Source of the DNA: Pseudonocardia sp. 73-21 | Lineage (GTDB): Bacteria > Actinomycetota > Actinomycetes > Mycobacteriales > Pseudonocardiaceae | Direction of reading: 5' to 3' | DNA: 64,000 nt | NCBI RefSeq assembly: GCF_001899645.1 | Contig: NZ_MKVV01000033.1 | Location: forward strand, 1-64,000 | Shown: one piece after another, positions 30,634 through 39,869 of the stretch | How the letters are laid out: every line of letters begins with the position of its first letter | Position numbering within the stretch: the first letter of the stretch is position 1 | Made by a program: the position numbers and the translations under genes | Notes under the pieces: model-generated | Seen by the model: the letters and a program-made list of their open reading frames with translations, nothing else | The model's database searches: none | Told to the model about the DNA's origin: nothing

Positions 30634-31374
30634 GTGGCCTCACCAGCGGGTCGGGACGACACAGCGGCTGTTCCGCGACGTCGGCCCGGGCGTCCACGGC
30701 TCACCGAACCGTCGCCCGAGTACCGCAGGCGGCTCGAGGAGATCATCGACACCGCCACCAGGGTGTTCCACGAGCGGGGCTACGACGCCGGGTCGCTCGA
30801 CGATGTCGCCACCGTCCTGGGGCTGCGTAAGGCCAGCCTCTACCACTACGTGCGCAGCAAGGCTCAACTGCTGTACCTGATCTTCGACCGGGCCATCACG
30901 CTCTCCCTGCAGCGGCTCGACCAGCTCTCCGAGATCTCCGACCCGAGGGTCCGGGTGGCCGCGCTGATCGAACACCAGGTTCGGATCATGGCCGAGGAGC
31001 CGAGCCTGTTCTCGGTGTTCTTCGACCAGAGGCCGCGTCTGGACGGCTCGTTCGACGTCGCCATCCGGCAGAAGGAGCGCGCCTACGTGCGGCGGATCGC
31101 GGAGATCGTCGACGCCGCCGTCGCGGAGGGCGGGCTTCCCGACGTCGACGCCCGGCATGCCGCCCACGCCCTGCTGGGCATGACGAGCTGGGTCTACAAG
31201 TGGTTCGATCCGGGTCGCGATGACATCGACGACGTGGCCCGCACGATGGTCAGGCTCGTGCTCGGTGCACAGGTCGACTTTGGGTCTGGCCCTCCGGTGG
31301 GTCCGGATGACGCCGACAGCGGCAAATCCTGCGGGTGGCCCGTTCAGGTCGCCGACAGCACCTCCATCAGGTAG
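30634..31374 (+). CDS. TetR family regulator
   Basis: The 246-residue protein has an HTH within EIIDTATRVFHERGYDAGSL and DVATVLGLRKASLYHYVRSK, and a C-terminal domain like that of KstR2/FadR-type TetR repressors (EEPSLFSVFFDQRPRL). GTG 30634 has GGGGGTGA upstream. It is the last gene of the thiolase-ligase unit and likely regulates it in response to an acyl-CoA. The final 20-25 residues extend past the usual end and overlap the convergent TetR gene by 31 bases, so the native C-terminus may have changed. Confidence 0.82.
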   Translation: MASPAGRDDTAAVPRRRPGRPRLTEPSPEYRRRLEEIIDTATRVFHERGYDAGSLDDVATVLGLRKASLYHYVRSKAQLLYLIFDRAITLSLQRLDQLSEISDPRVRVAALIEHQVRIMAEEPSLFSVFFDQRPRLDGSFDVAIRQKERAYVRRIAEIVDAAVAEGGLPDVDARHAAHALLGMTSWVYKWFDPGRDDIDDVARTMVRLVLGAQVDFGSGPPVGPDDADSGKSCGWPVQVADSTSIR

Positions 31375-32012: not shown

Positions 32013-32534
32013 ATGCCCGACTTGCCACCGCGCCCCGCGGACGCCGTCCTGCTGGAGCCTCACGGGGCCCGCTGCTTCGGATGCGGACCGGACAACCCCG
32101 CCGGCCTGGCGATGGAGGTGTTCCGGGTCGGTGACGAGGTGATGGCCGACATCCGCTTCGAGCGGAAGCACGCCGGCGCGCACGGCGTCGTCCACGGCGG
32201 CGTGCTGGCCTCGGCCTGCGACGATCTCGTGGCGTTTCTGCTCTACGTTCTGAACGAGCCGGCGGTGACGAGAAGCCTGACGGTCGACTACATGGCGCCG
32301 GTACCGGTCGGCGAATTGCACCGTCTGGTGGGCCGGGTGGCTGCCCGCGACGGGCGCAGGGTCATGATGTCGGCTCGGGGAACGGCGGCGGACGGCTCGG
32401 TGCGGTTCTCGGCCGAAGCGGTGTTCGTCACGGTGGACCTGTCGCATTTCGAGCGGTTCGGCTCCGGTGGTGGCGAGGACGCGATCGCCCGCTTCCGCGC
32501 GGCGGTGCCCCAGACGATGGCGGAGGGGGCCTGA
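32013..32534 (+). CDS. PaaI-type hotdog thioesterase
   Basis: The 173-residue protein has the hotdog signature GAHGVVHGGVLASACDD, with H-G-G and the following acidic residues as in PaaI-type acyl-CoA thioesterases. The N-terminal GARCFGCGPDNPAGLAM resembles the CxxC-bearing subgroup of that family. It should hydrolyse an acyl-CoA, possibly to relieve CoA trapping. ATG 32013 has CAGGAG upstream. It shares a TGATG overlap with the BtrH-like gene. Confidence 0.82.
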   Translation: MPDLPPRPADAVLLEPHGARCFGCGPDNPAGLAMEVFRVGDEVMADIRFERKHAGAHGVVHGGVLASACDDLVAFLLYVLNEPAVTRSLTVDYMAPVPVGELHRLVGRVAARDGRRVMMSARGTAADGSVRFSAEAVFVTVDLSHFERFGSGGGEDAIARFRAAVPQTMAEGA

Positions 32535-33580
32535 TGGGCGGATCACTGGTGGCGGGGTACCCGCACCGGCTCGGGGGGCACTGTGGCTCCGGGGCGCTGC
32601 GCGACCTGCTGGAGTGGGCCGGGCTCAGCTACGGCAGCGATCCGCTCGGTGAGGGTTTCGTGTTCGGCGTGGGCGGCGCCCTGAGCTTCAGCTACCTGCG
32701 CGGGCCGGGCCTCGGAACGCCGTTCTACCTGGTCGGTCGGGGCTCGTCGCTCACCGAGCAGCTCTGCGGGCGGCTCGGCATCGAGCACGAGTTGCGGGCG
32801 ACCGATGATCCCGACGAGGGGTGGGCCTGGGTGCGCAATGAGCTCGACGCCGGCCGCCCGGCCCTGTGCTGGGCCGAGATGGCCGAGCTGCCCTACCTGC
32901 GGGTGAAGATGCGGATGAGCCGCCACGACATCGTCGTGATCGGCTACGACGACGACGCGGGGACCGTCATGGTGGTGGACAACGACCGGCCCGAGCCGCA
33001 GACGATCAGCCGCGCCAACCTGGCGAGGGCCCGCTCGGCCCGCGGGTTCCCCATGCCGACCCGGCACACCTGCTTCCGGCTGGGCTTCCCCAAGAGCCTG
33101 CCGGACCTGCGGGCCGTGGCCGGTTCGGCCTGCGCCGACGCGGTCCGCGGAATGACGGCGCCGGCCCCTGCGCTGGGTGACGGTGTGGTGTCGGCCGCCG
33201 GCGTCGACGGGGTGACGGCGTTCGTGGCCGACCTGGACCGCTGGTTCGCGGAGTTCGACGGGCCGGAGCTGGAGAAGGCGCTGTTCACCCTGCGGGTGTT
33301 CGTGGAGAAGGCCGGCACTGGCGGCGGGCTGTTCCGCCGCCTTCAGGGAGAGTTCCTCGCCGATCTCGCCGGGCAGATCCCCGATCCGGTGGTCCGCGCT
33401 GCGCGCGACGTCTACCAGCAGATCGCGGCGACCTGGTCGGCGGTGGCCGCGGCCGGGCTGGGGGACTCCCCTGCCCCGGACCGCCTCGCGGCGGTGCGCC
33501 ACATCGCAGCCGCACTACCTGCCCTGGAACGCGAAGGGGTCGAGAAGTTGGCAGAGGCGGCGGAGGGGCTGGCGCCCTGA
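32534..33580 (+). CDS. BtrH N-terminal / DUF4872 family protein
   Basis: This 348-residue protein resembles the BtrH/DUF4872 family. The N-terminal GGHCGSGALRDLLEW places a Cys (C17) where papain-like C39/BtrH proteins have their nucleophile. SRHDIVVIGYDDD (H131) and VMVVDNDR (D149) supply the His and Asp. In butirosin synthesis BtrH moves an acyl group from a carrier protein to an amine. Here no carrier or aminoglycoside gene is nearby, and the partner is a thioesterase, so an acyltransferase or amide/thioester hydrolase role is inferred. The C-terminal half is helical and unassigned. Confidence 0.7.
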   Translation: MGGSLVAGYPHRLGGHCGSGALRDLLEWAGLSYGSDPLGEGFVFGVGGALSFSYLRGPGLGTPFYLVGRGSSLTEQLCGRLGIEHELRATDDPDEGWAWVRNELDAGRPALCWAEMAELPYLRVKMRMSRHDIVVIGYDDDAGTVMVVDNDRPEPQTISRANLARARSARGFPMPTRHTCFRLGFPKSLPDLRAVAGSACADAVRGMTAPAPALGDGVVSAAGVDGVTAFVADLDRWFAEFDGPELEKALFTLRVFVEKAGTGGGLFRRLQGEFLADLAGQIPDPVVRAARDVYQQIAATWSAVAAAGLGDSPAPDRLAAVRHIAAALPALEREGVEKLAEAAEGLAP

Positions 33581-33584
33581 CCGC

Positions 33585-35124
33585 TCACCCCTTCCGCTGG
33601 GTCTTCTTGTCCAGGAACCGGTCGGCGTAGAAGAAGCTGCCCCGGGACGCAGCGCTCGCGGCTGCTCCTCGACCGCGTCGACCATCGCCGGCGGGCCGCA
33701 GACGTAGGCGTCGCACGACGCGAGCAGCTCGGCGAGCAGCCCGGCGATGACGTCGGTGACCATGCCGCGGGCCCCGGTCCAGACCGAGTCGGCCGATTCC
33801 TCCGAGAGCACGGGGACGAACGTGTAGTCGGCGTCCCAGGACCCGGCCAGCGTCTCGGACTCCTCTAGGCAATACAGGTCGCGTGTGCTGCGGGCCCCGA
33901 AGATGAACAGGAGCCTCGCGCTGGACGCCGTCGTCGCGGGTGGCCTCCAGGATCGACTTGATGGGGGCCCAGCCCACTGCCCCCGGCGACGCACAGCACG
34001 GGCACGGCCGACGGGCGCAGCCCCAGGTTCCCGAACGGTCCGACCACTCCGAGTCTCGTGCCCGTCCGGTCGTCGGCGAAGAGCCACTCGGTGAACTCGC
34101 CACCGGGGGTCCGGCGGACGAAGAAGGCGAACTCGTCCTCGGGGCGGTCGGCCGCGCCCGTGGCGAAGGAGTAGCTGCGCGGGCCGGACAGCCCCGGGAC
34201 GCTCTGCTCGACGTACTGGCCCGCCGAGTAGGCAACGGCTCGTTGACCCGGACGGTGACCTCCAGGATGTCGTGCGTGAGTTCGCGCCGCGCCACCATCT
34301 CGACGTCGGTGTGCACCAGCGGATGGCCGGGCATGTCGGCGAGGTCGGCGACGTCGAGCTCGACGGGCCCGCGCGCCAGCGACTGGCAGGGGAGGATGAA
34401 GCGGTCCTTGAGTTCCTGAGACGACAGCGCGATCGGGGAGTCGGTGATCTCCCGGACCTTGCCGCTGACCAGCCGGGACTTGCAGGTGCCGCAGGTACCC
34501 ACGGTGCAGCTGTGCGGGAACGGGATCTCGCCACTCGGGCCAGCCGATCCTCCGGTTCTCGTCCATCGCCATGCGCTGCTCGTCGGGGGAGGCAAACCCC
34601 GTATCCCAGTCCTGCAGCCACGGCTTGGCGATGTAGCTCGTCCACAGCGGGGGCACCAGCGCACAGACGAAGCAGAGGAAGGCGCTCGGCATCTGCGCAC
34701 TGTTGGTGCGCCGGGCGCCCGGACCCTGCCGTAGTGCTCGAGGTAGTTGAAGCCCTCCACCAGTAGCTTGGAGAAGACCATCGTCGCGACGCCGACGAGC
34801 AGCCCGGTCCAGCCGGCGAAGTACAGCACGGTCGCGCACAGGACGGCCAGCAGCAGGATCTCGGCGTACACGTCAGCGCGCGGGCGGAAGATCGTGAGGT
34901 CGCGCTTGCGCAGGGAGCGGACGCTCGTGACCAGGCCGTCCTTGCCGCCCTTCCAGACACCGTACGAGGCCTGCAGAATGAAGGCGTAGATGGTCTGGCC
35001 GAGCTTGTGCCCCACGTCGCGATTCGGGTCGAGGTACACCGTGTTGAAGATCGATCTTCGACACCGCGGCCGGGAACCAGTGCCGCCGGTGCATCAGCTC
35101 GCGGGAGATGGGCAGGTTGGTCAC
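33585..35124 (-). pseudogene. AlkB-like hydroxylase fused to ferredoxin and reductase, broken
   Basis: Pieces in three frames give, in order: SRELMHRRHWFPAAVSKI; DPNRDVGHKLGQTIYAF; hydrophobic helices ending EGFNYLEHYG (AlkB HYG motif); ALVPPLWTSYIAKPW; a plant-type [2Fe-2S] ferredoxin SCTVGTCGTCKSRL with LPCQS; and a reductase with GPRSYSFATGA, VAGGSGL and a VCGPPAMVDAVEE-type end. A GATC duplication near 35055 and several other indels break it. The third histidine box (expected after EHYG) is deleted and the N-terminus is missing. The ancestor was either one self-sufficient AlkB-ferredoxin-reductase or two genes. It lies downstream of the PaaA-like operon. Confidence 0.65.
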
Positions 35125-35228
35125 CGCCCCGATTCACCCGACCGCAGCGTCGTGCCGGCGACCTGCTATCCGCTCATCGCGCCGGGTGCACCGGAGCTCT
35201 GTGCCGTCGTGCCGGTCGGGCTCGTCGC

Positions 35229-35510
35229 TCAGGTCTGGACGGGTGCGTCGCCCGTCGTCTCGCGGACACTGTCCATCACGTGCGCGATCAGCCGGTAGGC
35301 CGTGGTCGGGTCGCGCAGCGGCGCGTCGGCCAGCCCGTCGAGGTCGGGCATGGCCCGGGCGGCGTAGGCGTCCGCGTGCAGGATCGGGACCAGCTCGGCC
35401 TCGGTTAGCAGCAGGTCCACCGTGGGGAAGTCGCCGCTGATCTCCCCGTCGGTCCATGTGATGTGCACAAGGCTCCCGTTGCGTGAGCCCTTGACGGTGA
35501 AGCTGGTCAT
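35229..35510 (-). CDS. Small protein of unknown function, PaaA-like operon
   Basis: The 93-residue product matches no family I know. It has a beta-rich start (SFTVKGSRNGSLVHITW) followed by acidic helices (LLLTEAELVPILHADAYAAR). It has no signal peptide, membrane helix or cysteine. It is the third gene of a reverse operon after the di-iron oxygenase and another small protein, only 10 bases from the latter. A subunit or assembly role is inferred from position. Confidence 0.65.
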   Translation of the reverse strand: MTSFTVKGSRNGSLVHITWTDGEISGDFPTVDLLLTEAELVPILHADAYAARAMPDLDGLADAPLRDPTTAYRLIAHVMDSVRETTGDAPVQT

Positions 35511-35520
35511 CGCCGCACCG

Positions 35521-35811
35521 TCATCGCTGCACCCCGACGGCCTGCCACACCTGCAGCAGGGCCTCCTCGTCGGACAGACCGCTGTCCCAGCCGTAGGGCT
35601 TGGCGAAGATGAACGTCTGCGGCTCGGGGTAGGTCGCGTCGCTGGTGTCGTACATGGTGACCGAGACCGATCGTTCTCCGACGGCCACGAAGAAGAACTC
35701 CCTGTAGTCGGATAGCGCCACCTCGAACAGCGACACCTTCGGGTCCGGCCGGGTCACCTGGACCCGCCACCCGCTGCGCGCGCGGGTCAGCAGCGGGTCC
35801 GCGGTACTCAT
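35521..35811 (-). CDS. Small protein of unknown function, PaaA-like operon
   Basis: The 96-residue protein contains GWRVQVTRPDPKVSLFEVAL and FFFVAVGERSVSVTMYDTSD, a likely single beta-sheet domain with a helical end. Its length is close to PaaB, the small bridging subunit of phenylacetyl-CoA epoxidase, but the sequence is not recognisably PaaB. Its ATG overlaps the stop of the di-iron oxygenase gene (TGATG), so it is translated with it and may be its partner. Confidence 0.68.
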   Translation of the reverse strand: MSTADPLLTRARSGWRVQVTRPDPKVSLFEVALSDYREFFFVAVGERSVSVTMYDTSDATYPEPQTFIFAKPYGWDSGLSDEEALLQVWQAVGVQR

Positions 35812-36533
35812 CAGAGGAACCGCCGGTTCGCGGTGTCGGCGGGCACCTCGATGCCCATCGCCTCCACAATCGGGCGGGTGTCGGCGATGTACTCATGGCG
35901 CAGGTCCTCGTTGTTCTTGGTGCGCAGGCCCCAGCGGACGTAGGCGTCGGAGAAGTCCGAATCCGAGCGGCCGAACATGTCGAGCGCCGCCGGCCACCAG
36001 ATCTTGATCTTCTCGTTCGCCTCATCGAGGCCTTCGGGCGTCGAGCAGATGCGCTTGAGGTTGCTCATGCCGAACGTGGCGTGGAAGACCTCGTCCTTGT
36101 GCAGTCGCTCGGCGACGGACAGCAGCGGCTCGTAGGGCACGCCCTCCCAGGTCTCGCCGATGTAGCAGCCCACCCGGTCGCCCAGGCCGTTGAAGTAGGC
36201 CAAGTCGCAGAACGTGTCGATGGGCAGGTGGAACAGGTACTGCTTGATCGGTGCGTCGATCGGACCGACGCCCAGGCCCTCCAGGATCCGGGCGGTGATC
36301 ACGCCGTGTTCCACCTCCTGGGCCATGAGCTTCGCGAAGGTGGTCTTGAGCCGCTCAGTTGGGCACAGCGTCATGCAGCTGTTCCAGAGCTTGCCGAGCA
36401 GTTCGGTGTAGTGGGGGTTGGTGGAGTTCTCCAGGTGATGGCTCAGCATCCGCACCAGGAGCTGGTGGAACTCCTCCGGCATGTCGGGATCGCCTTCGCG
36501 GTAGACCCGCTGCGGCGCCTCGGTGACCGTCAC
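35811..36533 (-). CDS. PaaA-like ferritin-fold di-iron oxygenase
   Basis: The 240-residue helical protein belongs to the PaaA/PaaC-type (phenylacetic acid catabolic, ferritin-like) group. Two E-x-x-H iron motifs are visible: E73-H76 in LMAQEVEHGV and E148-H151 in HKDEVFHATFG. It is shorter than E. coli-type PaaA (about 310). Typical members epoxidise an aromatic ring as a CoA thioester, with small subunits and a reductase. GTG 36533 is preferred because GGAAGGAG lies 5 bases upstream; the frame is open to GTG 36572. It is divergent from a hydratase-ligase operon. Confidence 0.8.
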   Translation of the reverse strand: MTVTEAPQRVYREGDPDMPEEFHQLLVRMLSHHLENSTNPHYTELLGKLWNSCMTLCPTERLKTTFAKLMAQEVEHGVITARILEGLGVGPIDAPIKQYLFHLPIDTFCDLAYFNGLGDRVGCYIGETWEGVPYEPLLSVAERLHKDEVFHATFGMSNLKRICSTPEGLDEANEKIKIWWPAALDMFGRSDSDFSDAYVRWGLRTKNNEDLRHEYIADTRPIVEAMGIEVPADTANRRFL

Positions 36534-36561
36534 CGGCACTCCTTCCATCGTAGTGACGTGG

Positions 36562-36591
36562 ACCATATCCACGACCCTGGCGTTTCGTCAA
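36562..36591 (-). promoter_or_regulatory. Putative promoter of the PaaA-like operon
   Basis: On the reverse strand, TTGACG (36591-36586) is followed after 18 bases by TATGGT (36567-36562), about 29 bases before the chosen GTG at 36533. This fits a sigma-70-type promoter and supports the internal start, because the upstream GTG 36572 would precede the transcription start. Confidence 0.45.
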
Positions 36592-36626
36592 CCGACGGGT
36601 CGGGCGAATTAAATGGTGGTCACCTC

Positions 36627-36656
36627 TTGACGTGCCTGCGCCCACCCAGACATTCT
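36627..36656 (+). promoter_or_regulatory. Putative promoter of the MaoC-crotonase-PaaK operon
   Basis: TTGACG at 36627-36632 is followed after 18 bases by CATTCT (36651-36656), about 50 bases upstream of the MaoC gene start. The -10 is weak (3 of 6). It lies back to back with the reverse promoter, each with the same -35 hexamer. Confidence 0.3.
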
Positions 36657-36708
36657 CCCGACCAAGGGGTTGGGCAAAACGTGGCCCCCCAGCGACACGG
36701 AGGTCGAC

Positions 36709-37101
36709 GTGGACGAAGGCGCAAAGGGGCGCACCCTGGCGGAGGCGGATCTGGCGGTCACACCGGAGCTGCTGGTCCGCCTGACCGGTGCGCTCGGAAC
36801 CGACAGCGGGGCACGAACCGCCACCCTGGTCCCCTCGTTCGCCGCGACGGTCGGAGGCGAGACCACGGTCGTGGACGGCTTGGGAATGGACCTGTCGCGG
36901 GCGCTGCTGGGCGGGCTCGGCTACGAGTGGGAGCGACCTTTCGTCGCGGGCGAGACCGTGCACGTCCGGGTCACTGTCGATGACGTGTTCACCAAGGGCT
37001 CCAACCAGTTTGGGGTGGTCGTCGCCGAGTACACGGGCAGCGACGGCGCCCTGGTGCAGCGCCAGTCGATCACCTTCGTCGAGAGGGTGGCCCAGGCGTG
37101 A
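36709..37101 (+). CDS. MaoC-like dehydratase, N-terminal-type subunit
   Basis: This 130-residue hotdog protein resembles the FAS1_DH/HadA-type subunit, which lacks the catalytic Asp-His pair and binds CoA in a heterodimer. YEWERPFVAGETVHVRVTVD and NQFGVVVAEYTGSDG are typical. It overlaps the next gene, which carries the catalytic motif, so the two form one hydratase. GTG 36709 has GGAGG 5 bases upstream; TTG 36670 is in frame but poor. Confidence 0.78.
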   Translation: MDEGAKGRTLAEADLAVTPELLVRLTGALGTDSGARTATLVPSFAATVGGETTVVDGLGMDLSRALLGGLGYEWERPFVAGETVHVRVTVDDVFTKGSNQFGVVVAEYTGSDGALVQRQSITFVERVAQA

Positions 37102-37454
37102 ATATCGAGGAGTGCACCCGAGGGCCGGTGAATCGGGTGCAGATCGCCCGGTACGCGGGCGCTGTCGACGACTACAACCCGGTGCACGTCGACGAGGAGT
37201 TCGCGAAGGCCGCCGGCCTGCCCTCTGTGATCGCGCACGGCCCGCTGACCATTGCCCTCGCTCTCGACGCCGTCGTCGCGCAGCTCGGCCCGGCTGCGTT
37301 GCGTTCGGCGACTGCCCGGCTATCAGCCCCGGTGTTTCCCGGCGATGTCTTGCTTGTCGTCCCCACGGACGCCGGCGTTGAGGTCAGGAAGGCCAGTGGA
37401 ACGGTCGTCGCTACGGTGGCGCTCACGCTCGCCCCGGCCGCGGACGGTGCCTGA
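37098..37454 (+). CDS. MaoC-like (R)-hydratase catalytic subunit
   Basis: The 118-residue protein has the hydratase-2 motif YAGAVDDYNPVHVDEEFAKA followed by GLPSVIAHG, with Asp and His of the catalytic dyad in DYNPVH. It should add or remove water at a trans-2-enoyl-CoA (or dienoyl/oxepin-derived CoA). It overlaps the upstream non-catalytic subunit (GTGA) and the downstream crotonase (TGATG). Confidence 0.82.
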   Translation: MNIEECTRGPVNRVQIARYAGAVDDYNPVHVDEEFAKAAGLPSVIAHGPLTIALALDAVVAQLGPAALRSATARLSAPVFPGDVLLVVPTDAGVEVRKASGTVVATVALTLAPAADGA

Positions 37455-38245
37455 TGGGCTACGAGCACCTCATGGTCGAGGAGCGCGCGGGCGGGGTCCG
37501 CGTGCTGACGTTGAACCGCCCGGACCGGCTCAACGCGTGGAACTCCCGGATGCGCTCGGAGATGCGTGATGCCGTCGAGGACGCCGCCGGTGACCCGCAG
37601 GTCCGGGTGCTGGTGCTGACCGGGGCCGGTCGCGGGTTCTCCGCGGGCGAGGACGTCAGCGAGATGGGCGACCTCACCGCGATGGGCACGCGCGGGTTCC
37701 GCGCACTGGCCCGTGGCATCCACGACGTGTTCGACACGGTCGAGGCCATGGAGGTGCCGGTCATCGCGGCGGTGGAGGGGGTCGCCGCGGGCGGCGGGTT
37801 CGAGCTCGCCCTGTCCTGCGACTTCCGGGTGGCCGGGGAGAGTGCCCGGTTCGTCATGCCCGAGGCCAAGGTCGGCCTGATCCCCGGCTCGGGCGGCTGC
37901 TCGAGGCTCGTTCGCCACGTCGGGCTGGGACGGGCGAAGGAGCTCGTGATGCTCGGCGGCACGCTGCGCGCGCCGCGAGCCCTGGAGCTGGGGCTGGCCA
38001 CCGAGGTGGTCGCCGACGGCGGCGCGCTGGAGGCCGCCGTCGCCATGGCCGGCCGGCTCGCCACGATGGCGCCACTGGCGCTGGGCATGGCCAAGCTCGT
38101 GCTCAACACCTGTACCGATGTCGACGCCGAGACCGGGCGCCAGCTGGAGCGGCTGGGGCAGAGCGTGCTCAAGACCACCGAGGACCACCGTGAGGGCGCG
38201 CTGGCATTCCTCGAGAAGCGCCCGCCGCAGTGGCAGGGCCGGTAG
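37454..38245 (+). CDS. Enoyl-CoA hydratase (crotonase)
   Basis: The 263-residue crotonase keeps both catalytic glutamates: the first in AAGGGFELALSCDF and the second in MPEAKVGLIPGSGG. GAGRGFSAGEDVSEM provides the oxyanion loop. It is therefore the crotonase here most likely to be a true hydratase, although PaaG/PaaF-type ring chemistry is possible given the PaaK and PaaA-like neighbours. It is coupled to the MaoC genes and lies 8 bases before the ligase start. Confidence 0.85.
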   Translation: MGYEHLMVEERAGGVRVLTLNRPDRLNAWNSRMRSEMRDAVEDAAGDPQVRVLVLTGAGRGFSAGEDVSEMGDLTAMGTRGFRALARGIHDVFDTVEAMEVPVIAAVEGVAAGGGFELALSCDFRVAGESARFVMPEAKVGLIPGSGGCSRLVRHVGLGRAKELVMLGGTLRAPRALELGLATEVVADGGALEAAVAMAGRLATMAPLALGMAKLVLNTCTDVDAETGRQLERLGQSVLKTTEDHREGALAFLEKRPPQWQGR

Positions 38246-38253
38246 GGGACACC

Positions 38254-39627
38254 ATGACCGCACCGGAGAAGGCCCGGTTCTGGAACGCGCCGACCCAGAC
38301 CGCCCCGCGCGAGACGCTCGACGCGCTGCACCTCGAACGCATCCGCCACCTCGTCGGCTGGGCCTACGAGAACTCGCCGCTGCACCGTCGCATCTACGAC
38401 GCGGCCGGGGTCAAGCCCGCTGACATCCGCACCTGGGACGACTACCACCACAAGCTGCCCTTCACCGACAAGCCACACTACGTGGCCGACCAGGAAGCCA
38501 GCGCCGACGGGTTTGGCGGCATCGCCCGCGGGCCGGAGACGTGGCAGCAGTACTTCCACACCACCGGCACCACCGGCCGGTTCCTCAACGAGGCCTTCAC
38601 CCACTACGAGCTGCACAAGGCGGGGTCGCAGTACTGCTACGGCATGTGGGACCACGGGATCCGGCCGTCGGACTCGATGTACTTCTGCTTCGACTTCGGT
38701 ATGTGGATCGGGCTCTGGAGCTTCTACTGGGGCGCCCGCAACCTCGGGCTGACGATCGTCTCCGGCGGCGGGGCGACCGGTGTGCAGCGCGTCCGGCAGA
38801 TCCTGGAGCGGCGGCCCACCGTCGTCTGCGGCACGCCTACCTACCTGCTGCACCTCGCCGAGGTGGCCAAGCGCGAGGGCCTCGACGTCCGCGACGCCGG
38901 GGTGCGCATGCTCGCCGGTGGCGGCGAGGCCGGCTTCTCCATCCCCGCCACCCGCGACCAGCTGAAGCGGGCGTGGGGGGCCGAGCAGGTCTATGACGCC
39001 TACGGCGTGGGCGAGGCACTGTTCATCGGCCAGTCCTGCAACGAGTGGGGCGGCGGGGTGCACGTGATCGAGGACGTCTGCCACTCCTACTCCGTCGACC
39101 CGGCGTCCGGCGAGCCTGTCACGTCGTCGGACGCGGTGGGCGAGCACGTGCTGACCAGCTACACGCATTTCGCGCAGCCGTTCATCAAGTACCGCACCCA
39201 CGACCTGGTGCGCATCGACGATGCCCCCGACCACGGCTGCGGCTGGACGTGGAAGCACATGCCCGGCACCGTGCTCGGCCGCGCCGACTTCATGGTCACC
39301 ATCCGTGGCGTCAACGTCTACCCGACGGCTGTGGAGAACCTGGTCGGCGAGGTGGCGGGCCTGTCCAACCACTACGAGCTGCACATCAGCCGTGTCGACG
39401 GGATGGACCGCATGCTCGTGAAGGTGGAGGCCGCGACCCCGGGAGCCGAGGCGGCGGACCTGGGCCGCGCGCTCGGTGGGCACCTCCGCGAGAGCCTCGG
39501 CGTCCGGCTCGAGACCGAGGTCCTCCCGAGTGGGGCGCTGCCGCGCTACGAGCTGAAGACCAAGCGGATCTTCGACAGCCGGTCGGTCGACGAGCGGCCC
39601 ACCGTGACGTTGGGAGGGAACCTGTGA
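38254..39627 (+). CDS. PaaK-like phenylacetate-CoA ligase family protein
   Basis: The 457-residue protein has the PaaK plan. It lacks the N-terminal extension of FadD ligases, and shows YENSPLHRRIYDAAGVKPAD, the P-loop QYFHTTGTTGRF, YGVGEALFIG, YRTHDLVRID and VTIRGVNVYPTAVENLV. PaaK enzymes activate aryl-acetic or aromatic acids to CoA esters. It probably supplies the substrate for the divergent PaaA-like oxygenase. ATG 38254 has GGGGA upstream. It overlaps the following small gene by 4 bases. Confidence 0.85.
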   Translation: MTAPEKARFWNAPTQTAPRETLDALHLERIRHLVGWAYENSPLHRRIYDAAGVKPADIRTWDDYHHKLPFTDKPHYVADQEASADGFGGIARGPETWQQYFHTTGTTGRFLNEAFTHYELHKAGSQYCYGMWDHGIRPSDSMYFCFDFGMWIGLWSFYWGARNLGLTIVSGGGATGVQRVRQILERRPTVVCGTPTYLLHLAEVAKREGLDVRDAGVRMLAGGGEAGFSIPATRDQLKRAWGAEQVYDAYGVGEALFIGQSCNEWGGGVHVIEDVCHSYSVDPASGEPVTSSDAVGEHVLTSYTHFAQPFIKYRTHDLVRIDDAPDHGCGWTWKHMPGTVLGRADFMVTIRGVNVYPTAVENLVGEVAGLSNHYELHISRVDGMDRMLVKVEAATPGAEAADLGRALGGHLRESLGVRLETEVLPSGALPRYELKTKRIFDSRSVDERPTVTLGGNL

Positions 39628-39869
39628 CGACCGTGCAGACGCCGGCGCAGGCGGCCCCGCCGGTGCTCGGGTTCCTGCCCGACCTCCAGCGCGAACGGCT
39701 CGTCGCCCTGCGGGCGGGCCTGCTGTCCGAGCAGGCCGCCGCGGTCAGCCCGGCCGTTGGGAGGGCGCTGGAGATGGCCGACGCGTACCTGTTCCTCGCC
39801 CTGGGCTACCTGGGCCACACCGACGAGCTGTTCCCGGGGGAGTCGGGTCCGGAGGCGTCGCCGCCGTGA
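39624..39869 (+). CDS. Small protein of unknown function, PaaK operon
   Basis: The 81-residue protein is mostly helical (DLQRERLVALRAGLLSEQAA, RALEMADAYLFLALGYLGHT). It has no recognised domain and one mildly hydrophobic helix that is too polar for a membrane span. GTG 39624 overlaps the ligase stop, so it is co-translated. It may be a chaperone or subunit for the operon enzymes. Confidence 0.55.
   Translation: MTTVQTPAQAAPPVLGFLPDLQRERLVALRAGLLSEQAAAVSPAVGRALEMADAYLFLALGYLGHTDELFPGESGPEASPP

Follow-up and report, generated by a model that had tools for sequence, protein, structure and literature searches.

A PaaA-like protein with two orphan partner families in Pseudonocardia, a candidate CoA-ester di-iron oxygenase system

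What does a short PaaA-like protein do in a gene cluster that holds no PaaB, PaaC or PaaD gene? The question is raised by positions 35229-39869 of a 64,000-nucleotide stretch of DNA from Pseudonocardia sp. 73-21 (contig NZ_MKVV01000033.1, positions 1 to 64,000), the whole of which we call the window. Here, on the minus strand, oxyA (36566-35811) encodes a PaaA-family di-iron protein of 251 residues, OxyA, the presumed catalytic subunit, and is followed by the genes of two orphan proteins, s96 (35811-35521; 96 residues), which has one base in common with oxyA, and s93 (35510-35229; 93 residues), which begins after a gap of 10 bases. The trio is read leftwards, divergent from a plus-strand operon of a HadA-like gene, a MaoC gene, a crotonase, a PaaK-like ligase and the small gene s81, and neighbouring genes overlap or almost abut; the arrangement is the one described in the original prediction, which was made for this locus from the sequence. 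Two epoxidases of ring coenzyme A (CoA) esters, Paa and Box, are described in the part of PMC4498308 that treats such enzymes. We consider it reasonably probable, judging from alignments and gene context, that the cluster is a catabolic regulon in which OxyA is a CoA-ester di-iron oxygenase and s96 and s93 are its accessory subunits. The OxyA system would then be a variant of the CoA-ester di-iron oxygenases that has apparently not been described before and whose two partners belong to orphan families.

In the mechanism that we propose, the PaaK-like ligase, with s81, would convert an acid to its CoA thioester, which OxyA would bind and into which it would insert one oxygen atom, by epoxidation or hydroxylation. 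As small accessory subunits, s96 and s93 would stand in the positions that PaaB and PaaC hold in phenylacetyl-CoA epoxidase, and electrons would come from an NAD(P)H/[2Fe-2S] reductase of the phthalate dioxygenase reductase (PDR) type, supplied in cis in Mycobacterium and Rhodococcus and in trans in the Pseudonocardia of the window. The MaoC pair and the crotonase would hydrate or rearrange the product, leading to thiolytic cleavage, while a TetR repressor would close the oxyA promoter at the palindrome CCGAC-NN-GTCGG, its release probably being triggered by an acyl-CoA.

OxyA and its two small partners

OxyA is a member of the PaaA_PaaC superfamily (59.2 bits against PF05138, where the gathering cut-off is 28.5) and, as had been predicted, a short PaaA-like protein with two ExxH motifs, E84-H87 and E159-H162. 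Against the PaaA equivalog TIGR02156 it scores 69.1 bits, below the cut-off of 280. In a tree of 38 rows, which is midpoint-rooted, has some long branches and omits the oxyA rows L010, L011, L012, L020, L058 and L060, the 17 OxyA rows form a single clade (support 100/99) outside the PaaA clade, lying on the PaaA side of the split between PaaA and PaaC and apart from PaaC. Its sister (99/95) consists of two short PaaA-like proteins that adjoin radical SAM genes. OxyA is without the roughly 60-residue C-terminal extension of PaaA. Elsewhere in the same genome, on contig C40, PaaA and PaaC have genes of their own, and no further PF05138 gene above the cut-off was found in it besides oxyA and two on another contig.

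The iron ligands of E. coli PaaA, as given in the sections of PMC4498308 and PMC7497051 on its metal site, are E42, E72, H75, D126, E155 and H158, with a lysine bridge formed by K68. Five have counterparts in OxyA: E84, H87, D130, E159 and H162 align with PaaA E72, H75, D126, E155 and H158 and are invariant in all 20 aligned OxyA rows, several of them close relatives, while the sixth ligand is replaced in every row. E. coli PaaC, which is described as non-catalytic, keeps only two of the six positions, and this control indicates that the alignment test discriminates. An invariant glutamate, E46, lies two residues from the position of PaaA E42 and may complete the iron site in its place. There is also an invariant phenylalanine, F112, close to the place of PaaA F108, where the automatic alignment has a gap; as a counterpart of F108 it is suggestive only.

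That trio and divergent operon make up a conserved system was borne out by a neighbourhood search of genome collections, in which they recur, whole or in part, at 17 further loci (61-93% identity) in Pseudonocardia, Frankia, Mycobacterium and Acidimicrobiia, several of these loci being on short contigs. Near oxyA, s96 is found at 12 of the 17, s93 at 13, the HadA/HadB pair at 14 and the crotonase, at an identity of at least 65%, at 13; a close homologue of the ligase occurs at nine, and s81 at the same nine. At each of the 12 loci that have s96 it comes directly after oxyA, and in the nine Pseudonocardia copies, from eight genomes, s96 is in every case succeeded by s93. The trio also lies on plasmids of Rhodococcus jostii RHA1 (pRHL1) and R. 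pseudokoreensis. Codon comparison with loci L003 and L004, and with L006 for the small genes only, gave dN below dS in 11 of 11 gene pairs, with dN/dS of 0.08-0.11 for oxyA (two pairs) and 0.26-0.48 for s96, s93 and s81 (three pairs each). These genes are thus not spurious: oxyA is under purifying selection, s96 and s93 are kept across genera, and their neighbours are conserved with them. Neither unconserved small proteins nor unconserved neighbours, which would have counted against the original prediction, were found.

The system is seldom met. Of 62 Pseudonocardia genomes eight carry oxyA, and s96 and s93 are present in exactly those eight, one of which (G027) holds two copies of each; in a side observation, its two clusters (L058 and L059) lie about 300 kb apart, and one copy is accompanied by ATP-binding cassette (ABC) transporter, luciferase-like monooxygenase (LLM) oxidoreductase and APH genes as at L005 and partly as in Frankia. 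In 297 genomes of the family s96 is present in four, all Pseudonocardia carrying oxyA, and 396 genomes across the phylum gave an oxyA or s93 match only in the window's own genome. These counts use cut-offs of E 1e-30 or better for oxyA and E 0.001 for s96 and s93, and weak relatives could escape them, as the share of loose candidates scored was capped, at 80 (s96) and 83 (s93) per genome in the genus, at 6 (oxyA) and 13 (s93) in the phylum and at 16 (s96) in the family. Viral collections yielded no relative of oxyA or s96. Restricted distribution and joint occurrence together mark a rare system that moves largely as a block. A description of the trio was not found in the open-licence literature, an absence that is weak evidence.

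The small proteins themselves resemble little that is catalogued. None of s96, s93 and s81 matches a Pfam or NCBIfam family at E 1 or better; in profile comparisons s96 and s93 are unrelated to each other and reach a probability below 1% against the PaaB and PaaD profiles, in keeping with the earlier claim that they are unlike those subunits. The structural model of s96 (13 sequences; mean predicted local distance difference test score, pLDDT, 81.6) has five strands followed by a C-terminal helix, and that of s93 (14 sequences; mean pLDDT 91.6) is mixed alpha/beta. In Foldseek searches of the PDB neither had a match as good as E 0.001, the top matches being 2vt8_B for s96 (E 0.43, probability 0.85) and one of E 0.84 for s93, and the s93 model had no match in a viral structure library. 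As far as the libraries searched reach, both appear to be orphan families.

Electron supply, pathway and promoters

Candidates for a reductase come from the relatives of the cluster. Directly after s93 in Mycobacterium SM1, and as the second gene after s93 on both Rhodococcus plasmids, lies a gene for a PDR-type reductase; that of L014 matches phthalate dioxygenase reductase itself (2pia) at E 4.8e-61, ranked behind two P450-fused reductases. The relevant passage of PMC4498308 names phthalate dioxygenase reductase (2pia) as a homologue of PaaE. In the window no intact reductase stands beside oxyA, and the genome has five homologues elsewhere (48-56% identity).

The original prediction had tentatively assigned this part to a broken ferredoxin-reductase gene next door. 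The remains at 33585-35137 (minus strand) do include a reductase, of Fer2/FNR type; they derive, however, from two decayed genes and not from one, the second encoding a membrane hydroxylase of the FA_desaturase family. The same pair occupies the same place as two open genes, on the oxyA strand behind s93, at L004 (11445-13718) and L058 (6423-8738), and at L003 a different gene lies directly beyond s93, with no hydroxylase/reductase pair there. As the pair has decayed while oxyA is constrained, we judge it a neighbour, probably outside the system, and the broken reductase an unlikely partner of OxyA. We reject it in that role, since it belongs with the hydroxylase and a different, intact reductase is found in Mycobacterium and Rhodococcus. 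In relatives that keep the pair, it perhaps carries out an upstream step.

The divergent operon looks catabolic. Its first gene (36670-37101, with a TTG start and an alternative GTG at 36709) encodes the HadA-like half of a hydratase pair of MaoC/hot-dog type, and it continues with the MaoC (HadB-like) half (37098-37454), a crotonase of the enoyl-CoA hydratase family (37454-38245), the PaaK-like acyl-CoA ligase (38254-39627; domains AMP-binding and AMP-binding_C_2) and, downstream of it, s81 (39624-39869; 81 residues). In the nine loci with a close ligase homologue s81 directly follows the ligase without exception, and as it tracks the ligase and not the oxygenase we rejected it as an oxygenase subunit. 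In Frankia and Acidimicrobiia the neighbours include, though not at every locus, thiolase, CoA-transferase III, F420-type LLM oxidoreductase, a kinase-like protein of the APH family, short-chain dehydrogenases/reductases, acyl-CoA dehydrogenase and an amidohydrolase-family protein, and branched-chain-type ABC transporter genes occur at L005, L008, L009, L011, L015 and L059. By its gene neighbours, then, the cluster looks like a catabolic regulon.

What it degrades is less clear than had been supposed. The aryl or alicyclic substrate of the original prediction does not find support in the ligase, which scores 202 bits against PaaK phenylacetate-CoA ligase (TIGR02155), far below the cut-off of 646, and for which the top-scoring sequence in the PDB is that of 2-hydroxyisobutyryl-CoA synthetase (204 bits, with PaaK at 182). 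An aromatic substrate is therefore not established; an aliphatic or branched acid may be the substrate, and an aromatic or alicyclic one is possible, no more.

The amidohydrolase-family protein near oxyA is an observation in its own right. It occurs in Frankia and Acidimicrobiia at L009 (13597-14829) and also at L010, L011, L013 and L015/L060, and its closest PDB relatives are PtmU3 and DitZ. PMC10811679 counts PtmU3 among the amidohydrolase-related dinuclear oxygenases, so that two dinuclear oxygenases unrelated to each other may be present in these clusters.

Between the two operons the -35-like hexamer TTGACG occurs on both strands, as had been noted from the sequence: on the oxyA side at 36591-36586 (minus strand), in a promoter-like site extending to 36562, and ahead of the hadAB-ech-ligase operon at 36627-36632 (plus strand). 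All nine Pseudonocardia copies keep TTGAC ahead of oxyA, and eight of the nine keep it on the opposite side. Only the oxyA-side hexamer passed a promoter scan, with 9 of 12 matches and an 18-base spacer; no -10 passed for the one on the hadA side.

Here, as at many of the loci, the oxyA -35 is abutted by the inverted repeat CCGAC-NN-GTCGG (36592-36603 in the window), a candidate TetR operator within the oxyA/hadA intergenic region. A TetR-family gene lies near oxyA at nine of the 17 loci, on both Rhodococcus plasmids and in the window (30634-31374, plus strand), the window's regulator being 61% identical, over the matched part, to a TetR_C_24 protein of L014. With no or one mismatch the palindrome stands upstream of oxyA at 13 of 22 loci, Mycobacterium and Rhodococcus included; at ten of the 13 it was equalled by 0-3 of 300 shuffles, which preserve base counts and not dinucleotides, and at the remaining three by 4, 9 and 12. 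The 22 loci, to which L060 (from the same genome as L015) does not belong, are not independent, L020 and L021 being near copies, as are the four Frankia loci. The best match at L005 and L059 is found 170 bases upstream, on the side of the other promoter. An 11-base half-operator matches the window once, where 2.9 matches would be expected by chance, so that half-site by itself is meaningless; what speaks for TetR binding, which we infer, is that the complete palindrome occupies a conserved position.

Alternative readings

A number of observations count against OxyA as a CoA-ester oxygenase with s96 and s93 as its subunits. Whole-genome profile searches place s96 in 15 of the 20 oxyA-bearing genomes or records and s93 in 18, s96 being missing from the genomes of L013, L015, L016, L017 and L018 and s93 from those of L017 and L018; neither is thus strictly needed across the oxyA family. 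At L009, L011, L013 and L015 some 5-6 kb separate s93 from oxyA, and s93 has kinase-like, thiolase or CoA-transferase genes as neighbours. Parts of the divergent operon are missing at some loci: in the 30.7-kb stretches examined of the two Rhodococcus plasmids neither the MaoC pair nor a close crotonase nor a PaaK-like ligase was found, the 20.7 kb of L013 contain no close ligase, and at L016 and L017 the ligases are other ones. Two or three mismatches mar the palindrome at nine of the 22 loci (L008-L013, L015, L016 and L018). The PDR-type reductase is near oxyA at few loci, being in cis at L014, L020 and L021 and farther off at L007 (a partial match at the edge, 9.7 kb from oxyA) and L059 (50% identical, about 7 kb away). 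Finally, the position of PaaA E42 is taken by S48 in OxyA (Ser in 16, Thr in two and Asp in two of the 20 rows), and that of the bridging K68 by L80, a leucine in all 20, so the metal site may differ from that of PaaA.

The distribution of the small genes also bears on an explanation that keeps OxyA as a CoA-ester oxygenase and makes s96 and s93 small pathway proteins, not subunits of it, acting in product binding, at an isomerase or hydratase step, or in maturation of the metal site as proposed for PaaD. Their absences, the position of s93 apart from oxyA yet among pathway genes at those four loci, and two models that, lacking a significant PDB match, resemble no solved oxygenase subunit are all as it would have them; however, s96 is always next after oxyA where it occurs nearby, s93 follows s96 in every Pseudonocardia copy, and the three genes have been duplicated together in G027. 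We regard this alternative as rather unlikely.

The replaced metal-site residues invite a different explanation, that OxyA is a ferritin-like metal protein of other chemistry, such as an oxidase, a desaturase or an Mn/Fe enzyme, in which one first-shell carboxylate has been replaced and E46 may or may not rebuild the site. It draws as well on the sister group beside radical SAM genes, which keeps the glutamate and has Glu in place of Asp126. The invariance of five ligands in all 20 rows, together with an oxygenase-type reductase beside the trio at L014, L020 and L021, makes it distinctly improbable. That the cluster is an ordinary paralogue of the phenylacetate pathway, as might be suggested by its match to the PaaA family and by neighbours resembling PaaK, crotonases and hydratases, we considered and rejected as extremely improbable, given the OxyA score of 69 bits where the PaaA cut-off is 280, the separate 17-row clade, the absence of PaaB, PaaC and PaaD from the cluster and the genome's own PaaA and PaaC on contig C40.

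Known systems and neighbouring observations

The Paa system resembles that of OxyA in its PF05138 protein, in five of six iron ligands, in the genes for a CoA ligase and crotonase or hydratase, and in the PDR-class reductase of some OxyA relatives. It differs in that OxyA has two unrelated small proteins in place of PaaB, PaaC and PaaD, is without the C-terminal extension of PaaA, forms its own clade and, by alignment, lacks equivalents of Glu42 and Lys68. As for the Box system (BoxB/BoxA), to our knowledge BoxB has no small partners. Compared by description only, Box is like OxyA in general plan, with a CoA ester, a di-iron protein and, in what the relevant part of PMC4498308 relates, no PaaC-type partner; BoxA is there presented as unlike PaaE-type reductases.

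The radical-SAM-linked proteins (Alteromonas and Burkholderia plasmids), as the sister group, share the short C-terminus of OxyA but differ in their neighbours, which are a radical SAM gene and a gene for a MaoC or PaaI-like protein; the 12.7-kb stretches examined contain neither s96 nor s93. At their loci (L022, 5932-8287; L023, 6004-8401) no PaaB or PaaC is annotated alongside. The soluble di-iron monooxygenases, of which methane monooxygenase is an example, have an analogous plan of catalytic subunit, small accessory proteins and reductase, but OxyA, s96 and s93 have no match at E 1 or better to any of their Pfam or NCBIfam families.

Our preferred reading, OxyA as a CoA-ester oxygenase with s96 and s93 as subunits, would, if true, bring in one more lineage, equipped with small subunits of its own, and so widen the chemistry of aerobic CoA-dependent degradation; PaaB and PaaC would be replaceable, and the system would offer a test case for the roles of small subunits in di-iron enzymes. 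The pRHL1 copy in R. jostii RHA1 makes it directly testable. More ambitiously, and in our view somewhat unlikely, OxyA could represent a class of its own among di-iron (or Mn/Fe) acyl-CoA oxygenases, a PaaA-like catalytic subunit with a rebuilt metal site that dispenses with PaaB and PaaC, assembles with two protein families whose folds have not been seen before and acts in an undescribed actinobacterial pathway for a branched or cyclic acid.

Two minor observations concern other genes. On a Rhodococcus ruber plasmid (L075, 3947-6190) divergent PaaA-like and PaaC-like genes flank a hypothetical gene, with the gene of an iron-sulfur assembly protein behind them and a CoA ligase nearby, and make up a further Paa variant. 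In the window, beside the cluster, positions 32534-33580 encode a protein with relatives at L003 and L004, which, judged by eye only, looks similar to BtrH_N-type proteins.

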